Positions 6,583 to 28,366 of a stretch of 41,914 nucleotides of DNA are shown here, one piece after another. Source of the DNA: Hahella sp. CCB-MM4 (GTDB taxonomy: Bacteria > Pseudomonadota > Gammaproteobacteria > Pseudomonadales > Oleiphilaceae); the NCBI RefSeq assembly GCF_002260525.1, contig NZ_MRYI01000029.1, forward strand, positions 1-41,914, given 5' to 3'. The position numbers were made by a program, and so were the translations under genes. Each line of letters opens with the position of its first letter. The stretch's first letter is position 1. The notes beneath the pieces were generated by a model, which worked only from the letters and a program-made list of their open reading frames with translations, made no database searches and was not told the DNA's origin.

Positions 6583-7614
6583 TCAGGGCAGTAAGGCAAT
6601 CTGGTTAAGCCCGGCCGTTTCTTCCAAACCTAGCATAAGGTTCATATTTTGCACGGCCTGACCTGCAGCGCCTTTTACAAGATTATCGATCACCGACAAT
6701 ACAACGACCACATTACTGTCCGGCTGCTGATGTAAGGCAATCCTGCACAGGTTGGTGCCGCGAACCGTCCGGGTTTCCGGATGCTCCCTCAAAGGCATTA
6801 CATCGACAAAGGGCTCGTCACGGTAGTGATCTTCAAAAATATTCTGAAGCTCCGAGAAATCCCCTTTAAGTTCAGCATAGAGTGTCGCCTCAATTCCACG
6901 AATCATCGGCACGAGATGAGGTACAAAGGTCAAACCTACCGGAGCACCAGCGACCTGCCCCAGGCCCTGCTTGATTTCCGGAAGATGACGATGGCCAGAC
7001 GCTCCGTAGGCCTTGAAGCTTTCTGAAACTTCACAGCTCAACGTTCCTACTTTCGCCTGGCGGCCGGCCCCACTGACACCGGATTTGGCGTCCGCAATCA
7101 ACCGCCCGGAATCCACCAACTGATTTTTCAGTAGAGGAATAAAGCCCAGTTGAACCGCGGTCGGATAACATCCCGGGTTGGCAACCAACCGTGCGGAGCG
7201 GATCTTTTCCCGATTGATCTCAGGCAATCCGTAGATGGCTTCTCCCAGTATTTCCGGACAAGCATGCTCCTGACCGTACCAGTGTTGCCAGACGGCGGCA
7301 TCGGCAATCCGGAAGTCCGCAGCCAGGTCCACCACTTTGGTACCTTTGGCCAGCAGTTCAGGAACTATCTTCATCGCTACGCCGTTAGGGGTGGCAAAAA
7401 ACACCAAGTCGCATTCAGCAAGCACATCAGTGTCCGGCTCACTGAAGGCAAGATCAAGATGACCGCGTAAATTGGGAAACATATCCGCAACAGGTGTGCC
7501 GGCCTCTCCTCGTGAGGTGATGACACTGATTTCCACCTGCGGGTGCGCGAGTAATATACGAATCAGTTCCACACCGGTATAGCCGGTGCCACCTACGATG
7601 CCTACCTTAAACAT
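6583..7614 (-). CDS. argC: N-acetyl-gamma-glutamyl-phosphate reductase
   Basis: Third step of arginine synthesis: NADPH-dependent reduction of N-acetylglutamyl phosphate to the semialdehyde. The 343-aa product has the Rossmann motif GGTGYTG near residue 8 and the catalytic Cys149 in ANPGCYPTA. The conserved GVSGAGR and GHRHLPE segments follow. Length is normal for the long type-1 ArgC. It is first in the leftward group argC, DUF6776, bactofilin and erpA, as in Pseudomonas. Confidence 0.97.
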
Positions 7615-7644
7615 ATGCCAACCTTAACCACGATGTATTACGCC

Positions 7645-7713
7645 AACGAATGTTGCGACTTTGTTTATTTTCAAGTACTAAACGAATGATTTTGCAAGAA
7701 CTCACATTCGTTT
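7645..7713. repeat. AACGAATG motif, two direct copies and one inverted
   Basis: AACGAATG occurs at 7645-7652 and 7681-7688, and as its complement CATTCGTT at 7705-7712. The last two extend to a perfect 9-bp inverted repeat (AAACGAATG, 16 bp, CATTCGTTT). They lie in the 273-bp gap between divergent argC and the ClC gene, just before a TATACT box near 7735. An operator is likely; it does not match the ArgR box I know. I see nothing else certain in this gap. Confidence 0.45.
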
Positions 7714-7887
7714 TACGGATTGCGTATACTACCAGTTTTCACCCGTCCTGGCAGAGTCTGTTTACATAAATAAACCGGCCTTACAAAGGGACATTATTTC
7801 ATCTTTTATTGACAGATCTTCCACTTACACGATATTGACGTCCAGGATACGTGCGTGAACTCTGACTGGCTTGCTTAAGGAGACATA

Positions 7888-9693
7888 GTGCAGAAGAAGG
7901 AGAAGTCCAAACTCCGATTAGAACTTCCCCCTGCGCTCGTGCAGCGCTGGGACCTCGCCTTTCAATCCTTTCGCCGCAGGGTCGCCAGCTATGACGCTCT
8001 CCCGCAATTGGCTTTCCTTGGTATTCTCTCCGGCCTGCTGACCGGAGTGGTTATTCTACTCTTCCGCTTTGCCATCGAATGGCCCCTCTCCATTCTGCTC
8101 CCTGACGGGCATTCTGAGGCATTTGAAGGGCTCAGTCCTTTGGCCCGGGTGATTCTTCCCCTGAGTGGCGCCCTGACCCTGGCGTTAGTACTGCACCGGC
8201 TTGGCGTTCAGAATCGTAAGGTTGGTGTCGCCCATATCATGGAACGCTTGGGCTATCACCAGGGTTACATTTCCTTTAAGAGCGGAATGCTGCAGTTTTT
8301 CTGCGGAATTATGACGATCATCAGCGGCCAGAGCGCTGGTCGGGAAGGTCCCGCTGTGCACCTGGGAGCCACTGCCTCCAGCCTGCTCGGTCAAAGAATG
8401 CGTCTGCCTAACAATAGCATCCGGATGCTGGTTGGATGCGGAACAGCCGCGGCGATTTCAGCTTCATTCAACACTCCCATTGCGGGCGTTATATTCGCCA
8501 TGGAAGTGGTCATGATGGAATACACCATTAACGGGTTTACCCCAATTATCCTGGCCGCCGTTACTGCAGCAGTAGTGTCCCAAACCGCTTACGGTGATGA
8601 CCCAGCCTTTATCGTGCCGGACTTCAGCCTGCATTCTCTCTTGGAATTACCCTACATTGTGGCCGCGGCCATTCTGATTAGTCTGTTTTCCGTGCTGTTT
8701 GTCAATGTCATGACCCAGACCATGACCCGCATACGCATCGGGCTGATCTGGAAACTCCTGCTTGCCGGGCTTATTACCGGCGGTAGCGCCCTGGTTGTTC
8801 CTGAAATTATGGGGATTGGTTATGACACCGTTAACCAGGCAATTGCCGGCACCCTGCCCTTCCTGTTTCTTCTGGTGATTGCGCTGATGAAACTGCTGGT
8901 GACCTCCACCACGATAGGCTTGGGGATGCCCAGCGGCATCATCGGTCCAACGCTTTTTACAGGCGCAACATTGGGAGGCGCTCTGGGAGTATTGGCACAG
9001 AACCTCATGCCCACTCTGGCGTCTGAACCGGGTTTCTACGCGGTGCTGGGTATGGGAGCGATGATGGGATCAGTGCTGCAGGCCCCGTTGGCCGCAATTA
9101 TGGCAGTCATCGAGCTTACCCGGAGCCCCAATGTCATTCTTCCGACCATGCTGATCATTATCATTTCGAGCTTGATCGCATCACATTACTTCCGACAAAG
9201 ATCGGTATTCCTGAGCATTCTGCAGCTGCAGGGACTGGACTACAAAGCTGAACCCCTGACAATGGCGTTGCGGCGCATCTCCGTTGGAGCCATCATGGAA
9301 CGCAGCATCAAACGGGCCAAACAGCAATTGAGCTGGACAGATTGCCAGTCTGCGCTAAAGGAACAACCCAAGTGGATCATTATCGAAGGCGAAGACAAAC
9401 CCCGGGCAGTTCTGCCCGCCGCCGACCTGGCCCGCTATCTGGATGAGAACAAGCCTGAGGAAGAGTTTGATCCCGAGACCTTGATGGTCGACTTGCTGAG
9501 TATTCCAGCCCAAAGAAGGGATGCAGCCTCGCTACATATTCAGGCCACGCTGGAGGAAGCCTTGCAGAGATTCAATGACAAAGGGGTGGAAGCACTTTAT
9601 GTGGAACGGACCTCCGCGCCACTGATCAAACCGATTATTGGCGTTATCACCCGGGCAGAAATCGACAGCTTCTACCGATACAAACCTAAATAG
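7888..9693 (+). CDS. ClC family chloride channel/antiporter with C-terminal CBS region
   Basis: An integral membrane protein of 601 aa. About ten to twelve hydrophobic segments lie between residues 40 and 440, and a cytoplasmic CBS-pair-like region between about 455 and 600. The ClC gating motif is present as GREGP (151-155, gating Glu153), followed by the N-terminal half of the pore helix bundle. The first pore motif, normally GSGIP, reads KVGVAH at about 111-116, and the GxFxP motif reads GIIGP. The anion selectivity of classic ClC proteins therefore cannot be assumed. Start is GTG at 7888 with TAAGGAG upstream. It stands alone before hemJ; the gap of 73 bp allows co-transcription. Confidence 0.9.
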   Translation: MQKKEKSKLRLELPPALVQRWDLAFQSFRRRVASYDALPQLAFLGILSGLLTGVVILLFRFAIEWPLSILLPDGHSEAFEGLSPLARVILPLSGALTLALVLHRLGVQNRKVGVAHIMERLGYHQGYISFKSGMLQFFCGIMTIISGQSAGREGPAVHLGATASSLLGQRMRLPNNSIRMLVGCGTAAAISASFNTPIAGVIFAMEVVMMEYTINGFTPIILAAVTAAVVSQTAYGDDPAFIVPDFSLHSLLELPYIVAAAILISLFSVLFVNVMTQTMTRIRIGLIWKLLLAGLITGGSALVVPEIMGIGYDTVNQAIAGTLPFLFLLVIALMKLLVTSTTIGLGMPSGIIGPTLFTGATLGGALGVLAQNLMPTLASEPGFYAVLGMGAMMGSVLQAPLAAIMAVIELTRSPNVILPTMLIIIISSLIASHYFRQRSVFLSILQLQGLDYKAEPLTMALRRISVGAIMERSIKRAKQQLSWTDCQSALKEQPKWIIIEGEDKPRAVLPAADLARYLDENKPEEEFDPETLMVDLLSIPAQRRDAASLHIQATLEEALQRFNDKGVEALYVERTSAPLIKPIIGVITRAEIDSFYRYKPK

Positions 9694-21390: not shown

Positions 21391-21567
21391 ATGTATATTT
21401 ACCGATTGGTTTTTTTGCTGATACTCGGGGTTTATATATTCTCTCCGGTGATCATGGATTGGTGGATTGCACCAGGCAGCGCCTGGTATCGCCCCTACAT
21501 CATGTGGTTCCTCATTATCGTTTTGGCATTCTGGCTGGAACGTAAGCGAGGCCCGAATGAATTTTAG
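21391..21567 (+). CDS. cbrX: Small membrane protein upstream of cbrA (CbrX-like)
   Basis: A 58-aa ORF. One hydrophobic stretch runs over residues 5-22, a Trp-rich loop (DWWIAPGSAWYRPY) follows, then a second helix (about 37-49) and a basic end ([10 protein letters not shown]). Pseudomonas and Azotobacter carry a small ORF, cbrX, in this position, which is translated together with cbrA. Here the reading frame overlaps the cbrA start by 11 bp, which supports coupling. The ribosome site is modest: GAGG eleven bases upstream of the ATG. The symbol is by position and architecture, not by sequence comparison. Confidence 0.75.
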   Translation: MYIYRLVFLLILGVYIFSPVIMDWWIAPGSAWYRPYIMWFLIIVLAFWLERKRGPNEF

Positions 21568-24514
21568 CGCCTGGCAACTGCTGGGCCTTGGCGGCCTTTA
21601 CCTATCCACCCTGTTTGCTCTGGCTTATCTCAGTGAACGCGGCCTCATCCCCCTGCGATGGGTTCGACACCCTGCAGTCTATATTCTCTCCCTGGGAGTA
21701 TATGCGAGCGCCTGGGCGTTTTATGGTTCAGTAGGTCTTGCCTACGAATACGGCTTCGGTTTCCTGGCTTTTTATCTGGGTATCTGTGGTGCTTTCCTAT
21801 TAGCTCCTGTGTTGCTGATGCCTATCCTTCGGGTCGCCAAATCCTATCAATTAAGCTCCATTGCAGACCTTTTCACCTTTCGCTATCGCAGCCAGTGGGC
21901 CGGCACCCTGAGCACGCTGTTTATGATTATCAGCTCGTTGTGCCTGATGGCCCTTCAGTTTCAGGCTGTCATGACTTCCATAAACGTGCTCACCGGCACC
22001 GATCACCACTTTTGGGTCGGCTCGGCGTTTTGTGCCCTGGTCATCATATTTACCATATTTTTCGGCGCACGCGGGCAGTCACGGGTGGAACGCCATCCCA
22101 GCCTGATGGTAGGTATCGCTCTGGAAGGCCTGCTGAAGATCATCATCATTATCACCCTTGGCATTATCGTCGCGTATAAAGTCTTCGGCGGATTTGGGGA
22201 ATTAAATCAATGGCTGACCGACAATGCCCAGCGGGTCAGCTCACTGGACCGCCATTTGGAAGATGGCCCCTGGCGCGCCTTGCTGTTGATATTTTTCGCC
22301 TCGGCACTGGTCATGCCCCACATGTTCCACATGATCTTCACCGAGAATCTCAACTCGCAGGCACTATTCAAAGCCAGTTGGGGTCTGCCACTCTATCTCC
22401 TGCTGATCAGTCTTCCGGTGCCTCTATTCATGTGGGCGGGGATTAAAATGTCGGTTCCCACCGAGCCCGATTATTTCATTCTGGGATTAGGCGACCGATT
22501 TAACCTTCCATGGTTTAACGCCGTCGCCTTTCTTGGCGGACTCACCGCCGCCAGCGGCCTGCTAATTGTGAGCTGCCTGGCGCTCGCCTCAATGGCGCTG
22601 AACCACATTATTTTGCCCGTCTACCAGCCTTTGGCCAGAAGGGATATCTATCGCTGGCTGACGCTGGTCAGGCGATTACTGATCACCATCATTCTGGGCA
22701 GTGGCTATCTGTTCGCGGTATGGCTGGATGGCAAGCTTTCACTTTCGATTCTGGGCGTACTGGCCTTTTCTGCCGGTCTTCAACTGTTACCGGGCGTGCT
22801 CAGTGTTATCTACTGGCCTTTGGGAAATCGTTATGGCTTTATCTGGGGACTGATCACAGGTTTCACTCTCTGGCTGATGACCCTCGCTCTACCACTGATT
22901 CTAGATGTTGATATTCTTTCCTGGGGACTGTGGCCTACCGATTACCGCCTGAACAATAACGATTGGCATTACTATGTCATGATTTCCCTGACGGCCAACA
23001 TCAGCGTATTTGTTGGCCTTTCACTGTTCTTTAAACTATCCACGGAAGAGGAACGCGCCGCGCAGGCTTGCTCGGTGGATACTCTGATGCGCCCCTCAAG
23101 GCGTGAACTAATTGCCGCCAGCTCGGAAGAGTTCAAGGATTTTCTTTCCGTCCCTCTGGGACAGGCTGCCGCAGATCGCGAAGTCAACCATGCCATTGCT
23201 CAACTTCAGTTGCATGAAGTCGAGTTCCGCCCTTATGCCCTTCGACGGCTGAGGGACCAGATTGAGGCCAATCTCTCGGGGCTGCTGGGGCCGGCGATTG
23301 CTCAGGATATCGTCAAACAATATCTCCAGTTCAAACCGGCAAGCAGCGTGACACCGGCACAGGATATCTATTTTGTCGAAACCAAACTGGAAGATTATCA
23401 CCACCGCCTCAGCGGCCTGGCCGGTGAGCTGGATACGCTCAGGCGCTATCACCGCCAGACTCTGCAAAACCTTCCAATAGCTTCTTGCTCTCTCGGCGTC
23501 GATCTGGAAGTCCTGATGTGGAACCAGGCCATGGAACAAATGACCGGCATTTCGGCCCCTCAGGTGATTGGATCACATATCAGCTCCATCGAAGCACCCT
23601 GGGCCGAACTGTTGTTCAGCTTTGCAAATGGAGAGGACCGGCATGTTTCCAAGAAACGAATCGATCTCGAGGGTCGACCTCACTGGTTCAATTTGCACAA
23701 GGCAACGATCGATAGCGATGCCGCCGGTCAGGTCCTGATGATCGAAGACTATACGGAAACCCAGTTACTGGAAGAAGAATTAGTCCACAGTGAACGGCTT
23801 GCTTCCGTAGGACGGCTGGCAGCCGGTGTGGCGCACGAAATCGGCAACCCGGTAACCGGCATTGCCTGTCTGGCACAGAACCTCCGACTGATGACCAAGA
23901 ACGAAGAAGTACTGGTTGCAGCAGACCAGATTATTGATCAAACCCAACGGGTTTCACGCATACTGCAAACTCTCATGCGCTTCAGTCGCTCCGGAAATTA
24001 CAGCCAACCCCTGCAACATGAACCGACACAACTCAAACGTTGCGTTGATGAAGCAATCCACTTACTCTCTCTGTCTGCGGCAGACCCTCAGGTTTATTTC
24101 GTTAATAATATTGACGAAGGCATTCATGTGATGGGAGATGGTCAGCGGTTGGTGCAGGTGTTCGTCAACTTACTGAGTAATGCCAGGGATGCTTCGCCTC
24201 AGGAGGCGCACATCTGGATTGATGCGGACATTGAAGACTATACCACCAGGATAGAAGTGGTTGATGAAGGGGCAGGAATCCCCAGCGATCAAATCGACCA
24301 TTTATTCGAACCATTCTTCACCACCAAAGATCCCGACAAGGGTACAGGCCTGGGTCTTGCACTGGTATATAGCATTATTGAAGAGCACTATGGACATATA
24401 CGAATCGAAAGCCCGGCGAATCCGGATACGGGAAGGGGAACTCGGGTTGTGATGCAGATACCAGGTGCCGCCATTGATACAACGCCGCAGACTGAAGAAC
24501 AGACGGAATCCTGA
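21557..24514 (+). CDS. cbrA: Sensor histidine kinase CbrA (SLC5 transporter fused to kinase)
   Basis: Membrane sensor of the CbrAB system controlling carbon/nitrogen balance, of 985 aa. Residues 1 to about 500 form an SSS/SLC5 transporter-like domain with about thirteen helices. A STAC-like linker (about 510-570), a PAS domain (about 635-745) and HisKA follow. The phosphoacceptor is His760 in the HEIGNP motif. The ATPase domain has [16 protein letters not shown] and GTGLGLAL (about 929). I chose the ATG at 21557: the longer frame has no family support, and this start gives a length close to the Pseudomonas protein. It overlaps cbrX and lies 3 bp before cbrB. Confidence 0.94.
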
Positions 24515-24517
24515 TTT

Positions 24518-25906
24518 ATGGCTTTAATCTTAGTAGTTGAAGACGAAAGCATTATCCGCTCGGCACTGAAACGCCTGCTGGAACACAACGGCCACCAGGT
24601 CCTGGAAGCAGATTCCGTGGATGCCGCTCTGGCCACCATCGCGGAAACCAAGCCGGACCTGATCGTGTCCGACCTTCGTCTCCCGGGCAAACCAGGCACA
24701 GAATTAATCACTCTGGCAAAGGTGCCGGTGCTGATCATGACAAGCTATGCCAGCCTGCGTTCTGCAGTGGACTCTATGAAGCTTGGTGCGGTTGACTATA
24801 TTGCCAAACCCTTTGACCATGAAGAAATGTTGTCGTCCATCCAGACGATTCTCGACCGCACACCCGACCACCCCAAAGAATCTTCACCTGCCGCCCCCCC
24901 GGAAACTCATCAGACCTTCTCCAATACCAAGGTGGATCTGAACCAGTTAATGTATGGCGAATGCCTGGAAATGCAGAAGTTGTTCGACCTGATCCGAAAG
25001 GTTGCTCCCACGGATACAACAGTTCTGATTCAGGGAGAATCGGGTACAGGTAAAGAGTTGGCGGCACGTGCACTGCATACTCTTAGTCCGAGACAGTCTG
25101 CTCAGTTGATTTGCGTAAACTGTGCTGCAATTCCTGAAACGCTGATTGAGTCAGAACTTTTCGGCCATGAGAAAGGAGCCTTTACCGGCGCGGTCGGAGC
25201 CCGCAGCGGTTTAATCGAGGCAGCTGATAGTGGCACTCTATTTCTTGATGAAATTGGCGAACTTCCTTTGGAAGCGCAAGCCCGGCTGCTACGAGTTCTG
25301 CAGGAAGGCGAAATTCGCCGGGTAGGTTCCACTCAGTCCAAGCAGGTCAATATTCGCCTGGTGGCGGCAACCCACCGAAATCTTAAGGCCATGACCAAAA
25401 CCGGTGAATTTCGAGAAGACCTTTACTACCGGCTGAACGTCATGCAGCTGAAGATCCCCCCCTTGCGAGCCCGCGAAGAAGACGTTGTCGGACTGGCCAA
25501 GATGCTGCTCAAAAAGATCGGCGACCGTATGGGCAAAGGCAGTCTCCGGTTCGACAAGGAAGCCTTGTCAGCCATCCGTCACTATGAATGGCCGGGAAAT
25601 GTCAGGGAAATGGAAAACGCCGTTGAGAGAGCCGTCATACTGGCAGACAGCGACACCATTTCGTCAGACCTTCTCGATATCGAGCTTGAAAGTGACTTTG
25701 AAGTCCCTGAAGGGATGATGGGTGTGGAAAAGGGCGGAGATAAAGCAGCTGATCTTTCCCTGGAAGACTATTTCCAACACTTCGTCCTCGAAAACCAGGA
25801 CAACATGAGCGAAACCGAGCTGGCCAAAAAACTGGGAATCAGCCGTAAAAGCCTGTGGGAAAGACGCCAGCGTCTTGGCATACCGCGCAAGAAGGGATCT
25901 AAATAG
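24518..25906 (+). CDS. cbrB: Sigma-54-dependent response regulator CbrB
   Basis: NtrC-family activator of 462 aa. The receiver domain has phospho-acceptor D52 (VSDLRLPG) and acidic pair E8/D9. The AAA+ domain has Walker A GESGTGKE (173-180), the sigma-54 contact loop GAFTGA and LFLDEIGE as Walker B. A Fis-type helix-turn-helix ends the protein (about 425-455). In Pseudomonas, CbrB activates crcZ from a sigma-54 promoter, and exactly such a promoter lies 545 bp downstream here. The start is 3 bp after the cbrA stop, so kinase and regulator are one operon. Adjacent GTTACC motifs downstream are its likely sites. Confidence 0.95.
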
Positions 25907-25918
25907 CCATATCCATAC

Positions 25919-25953
25919 TGCTGGGCCGATTCATATTCACTTCGCGCCCAGCA
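25919..25953 (+). terminator. Hairpin after cbrB
   Basis: TGCTGGGC (25919-25926) pairs perfectly with GCCCAGCA (25946-25953) across a 19-nt loop, 13 bp after the cbrB stop. The U-run is missing. It probably ends or stabilises the cbr message before the crcZ control region. Confidence 0.5.
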
Positions 25954-26060
25954 CTCCCCAAATTCTGCCGCCTGAAGCGTCACTTTTTCTCTTTATCTCC
26001 CGCTTCATACTCATAATTCTCCACTTCACACTCAAATAATCCTGGCATGCAATTTTTACA

Positions 26061-26078
26061 GGTAACATTTCGGTAACA
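26061..26078. promoter_or_regulatory. Distal GGTAACA pair (candidate CbrB sites)
   Basis: GGTAACA occurs at 26061-26067 and 26072-26078, 11 bp apart (one helical turn). The motif is the complement of the TGTTACC copies closer to the crcZ promoter. It lies about 390 bp upstream of the sigma-54 promoter. The DNA between 26080 and 26310 is A/T-rich with no gene visible. Confidence 0.5.
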
Positions 26079-26315
26079 CTTTTCTGATAAGGACCCTAAT
26101 TTTTGGCCTTCCCTTTTCACACATACCCCACCAATTTTTTGCACCATATTGGACAATTCTGCACTTCAATACGGCATCGCCTATTATTTCTTTAATTTAG
26201 ATAGATATTATCAATCGATTTATTACTATTTTTTCTTGCACAACCATTCTTCTGTGCAATATTTATTCAAAACAAGAAACTTTTGAGCCAATACTTTTCA
26301 CTCAGCCTGCTCACT

Positions 26316-26374
26316 TGTTACCAGTTGTTACCCTGGGGAACAACTTGGCGCTACAAAGTGGGGCACGGTAACAC
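26316..26374. promoter_or_regulatory. Enhancer-type site cluster upstream of crcZ (candidate CbrB UAS)
   Basis: TGTTACC occurs twice in direct repeat (26316-26322 and 26326-26332) and once inverted as GGTAACA (26367-26373). The second copy is embedded in a 23-bp near-perfect palindrome at 26323-26345 with arms AGTTGTT and AACAACT around CCC/GGG. These elements lie 80-135 bp before the sigma-54 promoter, a usual enhancer distance. In Pseudomonas, CbrB sites upstream of crcZ are TGTTAC-type repeats, as I recall. The motifs are seen; the protein assignment is by homology. Confidence 0.7.
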
Positions 26375-26450
26375 TTTCGTACGCAAAACTACTTACGAAC
26401 TCCATCACAAAACAGATAACACCATGTTTATGAAGGCTTTTTAATAAACC

Positions 26451-26466
26451 TGGCACACCCAATGCT
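26451..26466 (+). promoter_or_regulatory. Sigma-54 promoter of crcZ
   Basis: TGGCAC, five bases, then ATGCT: the invariant GG (-24) is at 26452-26453 and GC (-12) at 26464-26465, with the required 10-bp spacing. The sigma-54 consensus is TGGCAC-N5-TTGCW, so one base differs. A start near 26477 is expected. Confidence 0.82.
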
Positions 26467-26476
26467 ATTTACAGAT

Positions 26477-26850
26477 CACAAAATAAAAATAAAAACCCCT
26501 TAAGCTGCACAAATAAAAATAAAAAAGCAGAGCAAACAACAAAAACAACCCAGAACAAAAACAAGAATACGGGTGGCGAACTGATTGTTTTGGATGCCAA
26601 GCTTTTTAGCGGTATCAAAGGTATGGGTAGCGGTCTAGAAGAATAAAAAACGCGAAGGCGAGAAACGCTAGACATTCAACTCTTCCCTCACACCTATTAC
26701 TGCTCGACGTATTCAAAGCGTTCCGTTTGCATACTGAACTCTAAGGCTCTAATCGTGGGGCGAAATTTATGGGACTGGGACGAAACAAAAATAATAATTC
26801 GTCTGACCTTCTTCTCAGTGGGGATGGAAATCCATCCCCCTAGTTCTCTC
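26477..26850 (+). ncRNA. crcZ: CrcZ-type small RNA (Hfq/Crc decoy)
   Basis: No ORF is convincing here. Starting about 12 nt after the sigma-54 promoter and ending at a GC hairpin, the transcript would be about 370 nt; P. aeruginosa CrcZ is about 407 nt. It carries six A-rich or CA-type motifs suited to the distal face of Hfq: at 26479-26495, 26510-26526, 26533-26550, 26554-26565, 26640-26650 and 26783-26798. The first two are near-copies of CACAAATAAAAATAAAAA. Position between cbrB and pcnB is identical to Pseudomonas. It should sequester Hfq/Crc and relieve catabolite repression when CbrAB is active. The promoter, motifs and terminator are seen; the function is by homology. Confidence 0.85.
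26820..26839 (+). terminator. Terminator hairpin of crcZ
   Basis: An 8-bp perfect stem (GGGGATGG / CCATCCCC) with a 4-nt loop, followed by a pyrimidine-rich tail in which U alternates with C. It sets the probable 3' end of the RNA near 26850. Confidence 0.7.
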
Positions 26851-26904
26851 CTCTTCCTTCTCTGTGAATTATCCTCTTAACTAATCAATCATTTATCTTT
26901 CAAA

Positions 26905-26933
26905 TTGCAATCTGTTCTTCTGCTCGGGATTAT
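26905..26933 (+). promoter_or_regulatory. Candidate sigma-70 promoter of pcnB
   Basis: TTGCAA (26905-26910), a 17-bp spacer and GATTAT (26928-26933). It lies after the crcZ terminator and about 85 bp before the pcnB start. It would drive pcnB-folK and perhaps panBC. Confidence 0.45.
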
Positions 26934-27016
26934 CTGCTTCATCCTGGTCGCAAATTAGTCCACAACAGGGTAAACTCCCCGCCTTCAATTAGCTGGTGTC
27001 AAGATACCCTTTTGCA

Positions 27017-28366
27017 ATGTTAAAAAAGTTTATTGGCATGATTCGGTCGGGGACAAAATCCCCACAGCGCTTTTCCCTGAATATCATCCCCAGGGATCAA
27101 CACAATGTGTCGCGCAAGCAAATCAGCCCCAACGCATTAAAAGTGCTATACCGTCTGAACAGTGCCGGATACGAGGCCTTCCTGGTCGGAGGCGGCGTCC
27201 GTGACCTATTGTTGGGAGAACATCCCAAGGATTTTGACATTGCGACCAACGCCACTCCGGAACAAGTCCGAGCACAGTTTAATAACTGCCGTCTGATCGG
27301 CCGCCGTTTCCGGCTGGCACATGTCAGATTCGGACGCGAAATTATTGAGGTGGCCACCTTCAGAGCCAGCCATCAAAAAGCTGACGACGACGCTCACAGT
27401 GCCGCCACCAGTGATTCCGGCCAGATTCTTCGTGATAATGTTTACGGAAATCAGGAAGAAGACGCACTTCGCCGCGACTTTACCGTCAACGCACTTTATT
27501 ACGGTGTGAAGGATTTTGGCATCTACGATTATGCAGGTGGTATCCAGGATCTTGAGAACCGGCTCCTTCGTCTGATTGGCGACCCGGAAACCCGTTATCG
27601 TGAAGACCCTGTCAGGATGTTGAGGGCGGCCCGTTTCGCAGCCAAGCTCGATTTCAATATCGAAGACAAAACTGCAGCGCCAATCCCACGACTGGCCCAA
27701 CTTCTTCTCAACATCCCACCGGCACGTCTTTTTGAAGAAGTCCTGAAACTTTTCCTGTCTGGCAAGGCAGAGCCGACCTTTGCCATACTGCGTGAACTTG
27801 ATCTGTTCAAGTTCCTGTTTCCATCGACAGACCAATTGATCAACGAAGGCCACCCATACGCACAGAAGCTTGTAGTACAGGCTTTAACCAATACCGACCA
27901 GCGAATAAACGCTGATAAACCGGTAACTCCAGCATTTCTTTTTGCCGCACTGCTATGGCCGGCAACTCAACAGTTGCTGTTGCGCTATCTGGAAGATGGG
28001 ATCCCCCCCATTCCGGCCCTCCACAAGGCCAGCCAGAAAGTCATTGATAGCCAGGTCAAACATACGGCACTACCCAAACGATTCAGCCAACCCATGAAGG
28101 AAATATGGGAGCTACAATTAAGACTACCACGCCGAAGGGGCAAGAGCGCCCAGACACTTGCTGAACACCCAAGGTTCAGGGCAGCTTATGACTTTGTTTT
28201 ACTGCGTGAAGCCAGCGGTGAAGATCTGCAGGGACTCGGTAAATGGTGGACAGAATTCCAGGAAGGCGATGAAAAAACTCGCCAAAAACTACAACAGGGC
28301 CAAGGGCAAGGCGAGGGCAAACGTCGCCCAAGGCGTCGTCGGCGCTACAACAACAAGCCTCGTTAA
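27017..28366 (+). CDS. pcnB: Poly(A) polymerase I
   Basis: Adds 3' poly(A) tails to RNAs and so promotes decay; the enzyme is in the class II nucleotidyltransferase superfamily. The 449-aa product has the head signature LVGGGVRDLLL and the catalytic DFDIAT aspartates. It has RRDFTVNALYY, the RNA-binding RMLRAARFAAKL helix, and a strongly basic Arg-rich tail typical of PcnB and not of CCA-adding enzymes. I prefer the ATG at 27017 (MLKKF, as in Pseudomonas) to a GTG at 26996 that lacks a ribosome site. It follows the crcZ region and leads the folK-pan cluster. Confidence 0.94.
   Translation: MLKKFIGMIRSGTKSPQRFSLNIIPRDQHNVSRKQISPNALKVLYRLNSAGYEAFLVGGGVRDLLLGEHPKDFDIATNATPEQVRAQFNNCRLIGRRFRLAHVRFGREIIEVATFRASHQKADDDAHSAATSDSGQILRDNVYGNQEEDALRRDFTVNALYYGVKDFGIYDYAGGIQDLENRLLRLIGDPETRYREDPVRMLRAARFAAKLDFNIEDKTAAPIPRLAQLLLNIPPARLFEEVLKLFLSGKAEPTFAILRELDLFKFLFPSTDQLINEGHPYAQKLVVQALTNTDQRINADKPVTPAFLFAALLWPATQQLLLRYLEDGIPPIPALHKASQKVIDSQVKHTALPKRFSQPMKEIWELQLRLPRRRGKSAQTLAEHPRFRAAYDFVLLREASGEDLQGLGKWWTEFQEGDEKTRQKLQQGQGQGEGKRRPRRRRRYNNKPR

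Follow-up and report, generated by a model that had tools for sequence, protein, structure and literature searches.

What lies between cbrB and pcnB in Hahella sp. CCB-MM4? The window, by which we mean the whole stretch of 41,914 nucleotides analysed here, has the gene order dksA–gluQ–cbrA–cbrB–gap–pcnB, and its CbrA shares 94% identity with the Hahella ganghwensis DSM 17046 protein and 74% with that of Hahella sp. HN01. The cbrA product presumably has an SLC5-type N-terminus. Neither CbrA nor CbrB was named by NCBIfam, whose best models, AtoS and NtrC, both scored under their own cut-offs. An initial annotation, made from the DNA sequence, had described an unannotated gap of about 1.1 kb here, holding some 370 nt without an open reading frame (ORF), and had read it as a diverged member of the CrcZ family of Hfq/Crc decoy RNAs that gene callers would miss. 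The gap measures 1110 nt (25907–27016, from the cbrB stop at 25906 to the first pcnB ATG at 27017), and no plus-strand ORF of at least 60 aa lies inside the RNA; the sole ORF of that size in the region encodes 68 aa on the minus strand (26469–26675). We consider it highly probable that the stretch encodes a CrcZ-type small RNA of Hahella, predicted to titrate Hfq, or Hfq and Crc.

A covariance search with the CrcZ model, one of the checks proposed with that annotation, gave an end-to-end match: Rfam RF01675 aligned to 26513–26857 over model positions 1–398 of 398 (E = 8.4e-12, 50.1 bits). As this score is below the gathering score of 95 bits, an Rfam-based annotation misses the RNA and we do not file it under the curated family; a default gathering search of the window returned a tRNA only. 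Across the whole genome RF01675 had one match, in the cbrB–pcnB gap. No second copy was found in the Hahella genome with model R1, which was built partly from the window sequence itself and scored 97.2 bits there, the next two matches reaching 16.7 bits (E = 6). By homology the RNA is of the CrcZ type: the model match is full-length, the gene sits between cbrB and pcnB, and it has a promoter with CbrB subsites and six ARN repeats. It is homologous to CrcZ in sequence and architecture, with conserved position and structure.

The predicted sigma-54 promoter was found as described, as TGGCAC-N5-ATGC at 26451–26465, with the spacing of the sigma-54 consensus. The motif per se is unremarkable (2 matches in the window where 0.98 are expected) and was dropped as evidence on its own; what is conserved in relatives is its place relative to the A-rich runs. 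A sigma-70 promoter was also considered and rejected, the region containing a single minus-strand match compared with 2.2 in shuffles. Upstream of the sigma-54 site lie two F-type CbrB subsites and one of the R type. In P. putida the CbrB subsites comprise one F and two R, with neighbours 20–25 bp apart (PMC6296734). The F–R distance in Hahella is 42 bp by comparison, and an exact match to the middle subsite, R1, was absent from the Hahella promoter, which has one exact R site nearby. Measured from the –24 element, the boxes of relatives lie mostly at –112 to –135 (F) and –78 to –92 (R). A further two GTAACA boxes, spaced 11 bp apart, lie at 26062–26078 in the window, approximately 390 bp upstream of the sigma-54 site; they are also found in H. 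ganghwensis (L060) and were not seen in L061.

Downstream of the sigma-54 site, approximately 374 nt contain exactly six (A-R-N)n≥4 runs, the number of A-rich motifs first reported. When this sequence was shuffled with its dinucleotides preserved, the mean was 0.85 runs and the maximum 5, none of 5000 shuffles reaching six, and when 374-nt segments were scanned in 10-nt steps on both strands, six runs occurred together only around 26431–26481. Chance A-rich sequence was rejected on the grounds of these shuffles and of synteny. Runs 2, 4 and 6 fall in predicted hairpin loops, two others in linkers and one in the central domain. The A-rich stretches had been called duplicated; they are near-duplicates (CACAAAATAAAAATAAAAA at 26477 and CACAAATAAAAATAAAAA at 26508) and not identical. 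Their reported richness in AAU/AAA relative to Pseudomonas holds by the base fractions at the N site, which are A 0.38, T 0.26 and C 0.29 in three Hahella RNAs and A 0.20, T 0.19 and C 0.45 in 10 RNAs of the Pseudomonas-type family f20. Taken alone as a signal, TTGTTACC was rejected (2 found versus 0.72 expected, not significant).

We placed the start of the RNA approximately 12 nt past the –12 element and its 3′ end by the GC hairpin that had been noted there, which has 8 bp and lacks a T tract. The terminator scan did not report this hairpin (26820–26839). Because the T tract is missing, the 3′ end is uncertain and read-through into pcnB is possible. The window RNA folds moderately better than its shuffles do (z = –2.07, 4 of 100 shuffles being as good). 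In an alignment of 26 family members, RNAalifold gave 45 pairs that were 93.7% paired, with compensatory change in 25 of the 45, a level reached by 0 of 500 shuffles; the covariation score was 0.345, compared with 0.206 in shuffles and at most 0.100 with partners slid. The structure is favoured here, having been scored on the alignment from which it was derived. The stem around ARN run 4, drawn by eye from alignment A1 (23 sequences), was 86.6% paired with a covariation of 0.310 against 0.159, reached by 0 of 500 shuffles, while on two of five measures shuffles equalled it (double-change pairs in 145 of 500, further pair types in 477 of 500). The window itself is mostly unpaired in this count because its stem register is shifted (ACCC/GGGT), and the stems of hairpin 1 were read sequence by sequence because Hahella and other genera use different registers.

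Table 1. Features of the predicted RNA, its promoter, neighbouring genes and Hfq in Hahella sp. CCB-MM4 (positions in the window unless a locus is given).
Feature	Position	Strand	Remarks
cbrA, sensor kinase	21557..24514	+	dksA-gluQ-cbrA-cbrB order also in relatives
cbrB, sigma-54 activator, presumed activator of the RNA	24518..25906	+	
CbrB subsite, F type, TGTTAC	26316..26321	+	sequence as printed in PMC6296734
Second CbrB F subsite, TGTTAC	26326..26331	+	10 bp from the first
CbrB subsite, R type, GTAACA	26368..26373	+	83 bp upstream of the -24 element
Sigma-54 -24/-12 promoter element TGGCACACCCAATGC (TGGCAC-N5-ATGC)	26451..26465	+	sequence; same placement relative to A-rich runs in relatives
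Predicted CrcZ-type small RNA	26477..26850	+	RF01675 match, six ARN runs, covarying structure
ARN run 1, AATAAAAATAAAAAC	26482..26496	+	candidate Hfq distal-face site
ARN run 2	26512..26526	+	in loop of hairpin 26505-26530 (CTGC/GCAG)
ARN run 3, AACAACAAAAACAAC	26535..26549	+	
ARN run 4	26554..26568	+	in loop of hairpin 26548-26574 (ACCC/GGGT); equivalent stem covaries in relatives
Central structured domain	26576..26730	+	conserved stem GCGAACTGATTGTTTTGGATGC (26576-26597) with GTATTCAAAGCGTTCCGTTTGC (26709-26730), plus covarying inner helices
ARN run 5, AAGAATAAAAAA	26639..26650	+	within central domain
ARN run 6, AACAAAAATAATAAT	26784..26798	+	flanked by GACGAA and TTCGTC
3′ hairpin GGGGATGG-AAAT-CCATCCCC	26820..26839	+	8 bp, terminator-like, no T tract
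pcnB, poly(A) polymerase	27017..28366	+	usual downstream neighbour of the RNA
Hahella Hfq	L120:1453-1704	-	closest to Hfq structure 1u1s

Pseudomonas CrcZ (RF01675) and the Hahella RNA have in common the cbrB–pcnB position, the sigma-54 site, CbrB F and R boxes, six ARN runs and a 3′ hairpin. Pseudomonas-type loci also share the core sequences that flank the central stem on either side (AACTGATT.TTTTGG and CAAAGC..TCCGTTTGC). The Hahella RNA differs in reaching about half the curated score (50.1 versus 95), in a central domain much of which is lineage-specific and in first two runs that are rich in AAU/AAA; the Pseudomonas-type rows lack the GCTTTTTAG box found in its family. P. aeruginosa CrcZ is described as a 407-nt RNA with six such ARN repeats that titrates Hfq, and the six runs in Hahella equal the count printed there (PMC4063720). 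CrcY and CrcX, extra copies in P. putida and P. syringae (named in the same paper), are of the same RNA type; in the Hahella genome a single copy was found. The decoys RsmY/RsmZ and CsrB likewise carry several protein-binding motifs that titrate a translational repressor, as set out in PMC4063720; their targets are RsmA/CsrA, not Hfq, and the likeness drawn is one of mode of action. Model, synteny, promoter, CbrB subsites, the six runs and the shared core sequences all agree with reading the RNA as a CrcZ member.

We then asked how far this arrangement extends. In the window's family, RF01675 at E ≤ 0.001 matched 140 of 151 genomes and missed 11, and none of the 151 reached the gathering score; the view that this is a diverged member overlooked by gene callers was thus right in substance, the window RNA falling under that score as do all 140 matching family genomes. 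The 30 best-scoring of the 140 family matches and the window's own all lie between cbrB and pcnB (31/31). The 59 loci first fetched were the best-scoring family and order matches, and 55 of them have both cbrB and pcnB around the RNA and 3 have pcnB only, two of these (L043 and L054) being truncated at a contig end. Neither gene was found at L032, whose f20 genome has another match next to cbrB. We take family f1 to be Oleiphilaceae, its large genus g12 to be Marinobacter and f20 to be Pseudomonadaceae. At L063 (G003) and L083 (G262), cbrB and the RNA are present and cbrA was not found in front of cbrB, where the kinase may have been lost or replaced.

The initial annotation is supported in its reading of a diverged CrcZ member and understated the scope, as the unit recurs across the order. 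RF01675 matched 60 of 293 order genomes, with 14 above the cut-off, in two families only (f20 and f2). The weak matches in the order (E 1e-6 to 1e-3) are not random: 10 of the 13 such loci fetched (L079–L088, L094–L096) lie between cbrB and pcnB, and of the others L088 follows cbrB with no pcnB in reach, L086 precedes pcnB without cbrB and L084 is beside neither. For genomes without a model match we used a combination of sigma-54 site, at least two ARN runs and a CbrB box. Among 40 order genomes without an Rfam match, hand-picked from the CbrB matches listed to cover many families, this combination occurred downstream of cbrB in 33, representing 19 families, and was lacking at seven cbrB loci (three f6, three f8 and one f9). 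On both strands of the 41.9-kb window it occurred once, at 26451, and the window together with 47 loci longer than 8 kb gave 48 matches in 1005 kb (both strands). Two of these were clearly off target (L087, and L154 inside cbrA), and that in L084 lies away from cbrB and pcnB; it is the off-target rate that makes a useful control figure, because most control loci had been fetched for holding this region. L086, L150 and L159 had no match to the combination.

Among loci from named genomes, the unit was present after cbrB in 10 of 13: three Hahella, Marinibactrum halimedae, Aliamphritea spongicola and five MAGs (Oceanospirillaceae, Cellvibrionales, Saccharophagus, one Alteromonadales-labelled and one unplaced gammaproteobacterium). 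It was absent after cbrB in Endozoicomonas sp. OPT23; L156 ends inside cbrB and L159 is an unrelated kinase. With RF01675 at E ≤ 0.01, 4 of the 11 named loci scanned were matched (the three Hahella and L154). In family f8 (L073 and L091), cbrAB is located elsewhere and the RNA is still directly upstream of pcnB; in the f8 genome G329, cbrB is 187 kb from pcnB and the RNA stays upstream of the latter. The linkage of the RNA to pcnB may be firmer than that to cbrB. PcnB makes poly(A), a ligand of the Hfq distal face. Two loci hold further elements. In L079, three sigma-54 sites follow in succession between cbrB and pcnB (gap 6741–8472), with ARN runs after each, apparently a tandem triplication of the CrcZ-like gene. 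In L084 (G163, family f14), a sigma-54 site and three ARN runs lie at approximately 7860–7950, away from cbrB and pcnB, and are perhaps a second copy akin to CrcY/CrcX.

Outside the order the picture changes. A class sample of 274 genomes yielded five RF01675 matches, two of them from the order; the other three were weak (20.7–29.7 bits) and two of these partial. CbrB was detected at E ≤ 1e-120 in 27 of the 274 genomes, 24 of which are outside the order. In the 20 of these 24 cbrB loci that were read (L206–L225), cbrA stands in front in 19, one being cut by a contig end, and the pairs are often beside dksA/gluQ. The full RNA unit was found after cbrB in none of the 20 (up to 1.5 kb downstream; approx. 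0.7 kb for L213), nor was pcnB found in the sequence around them. In three loci (L217, L219 and L220) a sigma-54-like site is accompanied by a CbrB-like box but not by any ARN run. Since CbrAB occurs outside the order without adjoining RNA, it may be older than CrcZ; an RNA located elsewhere in those genomes would have been noticed by the class search alone.

A different departure was seen in genus g51 (G185, G320 and G397; family f36), where no CbrB was detected at E 1e-120 among the matches listed: G185 appears there as having none, and G320 and G397 do not appear among them. At L086, cbrAB was not found between gluQ and pcnB, and a sigma-54 site and A-rich runs remain; all the g51 loci (L086, L226, L227 and L228) keep a CrcZ-like RNA upstream of pcnB. 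CbrB boxes have gone from the g51 promoters, save one TGTTAC in L228 at –67. NtrC recognizes half-sites arranged as TGCAC-N7-GTGCA, and a box of this kind stands at the aligned place with 0 (L228), 1 (L227) or 2 (L226) mismatches. Among 95 other promoters, some of whose loci overlap, none had such a box at one mismatch or fewer and three had one at two. A second NtrC-like box lies exactly 32 bp upstream, within two mismatches, in L226 and L227, and in L228, read by eye, 31 bp away with three mismatches. The exact tandem was found in 0 of the 95 other promoters and in 0 of 3000 shuffles of each sequence, the motif having been noticed in the g51 sequences before being counted. Two such boxes approximately 32 bp apart recall, we presume, the arrangement at glnA, and all three g51 genomes encode NtrC above its curated cut-off. 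These features point to a possible rewiring of the RNA from CbrB to NtrC. Taken together, we see an evenly balanced case for a history in which Hfq decoys of the CrcZ type are an ancestral module of the whole order, CbrAB being older and the RNA having been added early 3′ of cbrB, to be triplicated later in L079 and brought under NtrC in g51. If true, a carbon-decoy RNA would in g51 answer to nitrogen.

The Hahella genome encodes CbrA, CbrB, Hfq and a Crc-like protein. NtrC-type activators are abundant (18 matches). The structure closest to its Hfq, 1u1s, is presumably that of P. aeruginosa Hfq. Residue 25 is F in Hahella; P. aeruginosa Hfq has Y25, and a Y25D mutant is reported to be defective in CrcZ binding (PMC4063720). 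To look for Crc we used a protein from an f20 genome that in the PDB matches 2myi best (an exodeoxyribonuclease III by its deposition; E 1.3e-175) and Crc 4jg3 next (E 1.5e-162). The Hahella homologue, L127 (G000:C74), shares 40% identity with this query. It reads VQDHR in place of the QETK kept by nuclease-like homologues in f40, f23 and f44, and CGNFQT in place of their GDWN or ADWN; which of these letters are nuclease catalytic residues is our assumption. Loss of the catalytic residues, the mark of Crc within the EEP family, is seen in L127, and Crc is described as being without them (PMC6422490). L127 also keeps the R138-K139-R140-R141 patch, given in the same paper as RNA contacts of Crc. 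The Crc dimer contacts E142, R229 and R230 are replaced by Q142, K229 and G230 in Hahella (tBLASTn pairwise alignment).

By analogy with Pseudomonas, exhaustion of the preferred carbon source would lead CbrA to activate CbrB, which would bind the TGTTAC/GTAACA boxes at 26316–26373 and drive transcription by sigma-54 RNA polymerase from 26451–26465. The transcript of approximately 374 nt would present six A-R-N runs that could bind Hfq at its distal face, with Crc probably sitting on top, and Hfq/Crc-repressed catabolic mRNAs would be released. An alternative is that the A-rich stretch is a long 5′ leader of pcnB, transcribed from the sigma-54 promoter and controlling pcnB rather than acting in trans. 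It would account for pcnB staying the downstream neighbour where cbrAB is elsewhere (L073 and L091 in f8) or not found (L086), and for a Hahella hairpin without a T tract; however, the RNA has its own covarying fold with a hairpin at its end, many relatives in the alignment have a TTTT tract after that hairpin and Pseudomonas CrcZ, in the same place, is described as a 407-nt RNA that titrates Hfq (PMC4063720). We regard a leader as improbable.

The RNA could also belong to the CrcZ lineage and bind Hfq, yet act in Hahella mainly by other means, through base pairing or by titrating Hfq without Crc. Crc has diverged in the window's family, and the conservation of the central stem exceeds what a pure sponge would seem to need, but the RNA has retained six ARN runs and the Crc-like protein its basic RNA-contact patch, and we think such a change of role quite unlikely. 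That the region is low-complexity intergenic DNA, or the 68-aa minus-strand gene, with a chance resemblance to CrcZ is barely credible: A-rich sequence can attract the model, as the three weak matches outside the order (two of them partial) illustrate, but the match in the window is full-length, synteny, covariation and invariant columns extend across genera and shuffles never reach six runs. A chance resemblance would, moreover, entail loss of the pattern in close relatives, and the loci read show otherwise. A CrcZ-type RNA titrating Hfq, or Hfq and Crc, is the reading we prefer.

In PMC8871633 and PMC6296734, CbrAB is said to be unique to or exclusive of Pseudomonadaceae or Pseudomonads, and catabolite repression by Hfq/Crc, with CrcZ as the antidote, is presented as a peculiarity of Pseudomonas and Azotobacter. 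The genomes of the order contradict this exclusivity for CbrAB and CrcZ alike. We found no paper in the open PMC literature on CrcZ together with Marinobacter, Hahella or Oceanospirillales; for Halomonas there were two, one naming the genus in its reference list only and the other concerning Stutzerimonas. PMC5073097, the one paper with CbrB among those listed for marine genera, discusses cbrAB transcripts by analogy with P. aeruginosa. Should the function of the RNA follow from its anatomy, this switch would be shared by many marine genera (Hahella, probably Marinobacter and others), and the unannotated gap between cbrB and pcnB would be the gene to examine for food preference. The relatives also form a natural series in which to study the origin of a decoy RNA, its multiplication and its move to another activator. 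A match to another small RNA, PrrF, was observed in Marinibactrum halimedae (L152:318–458), with 65.5 bits against a gathering score of 90.
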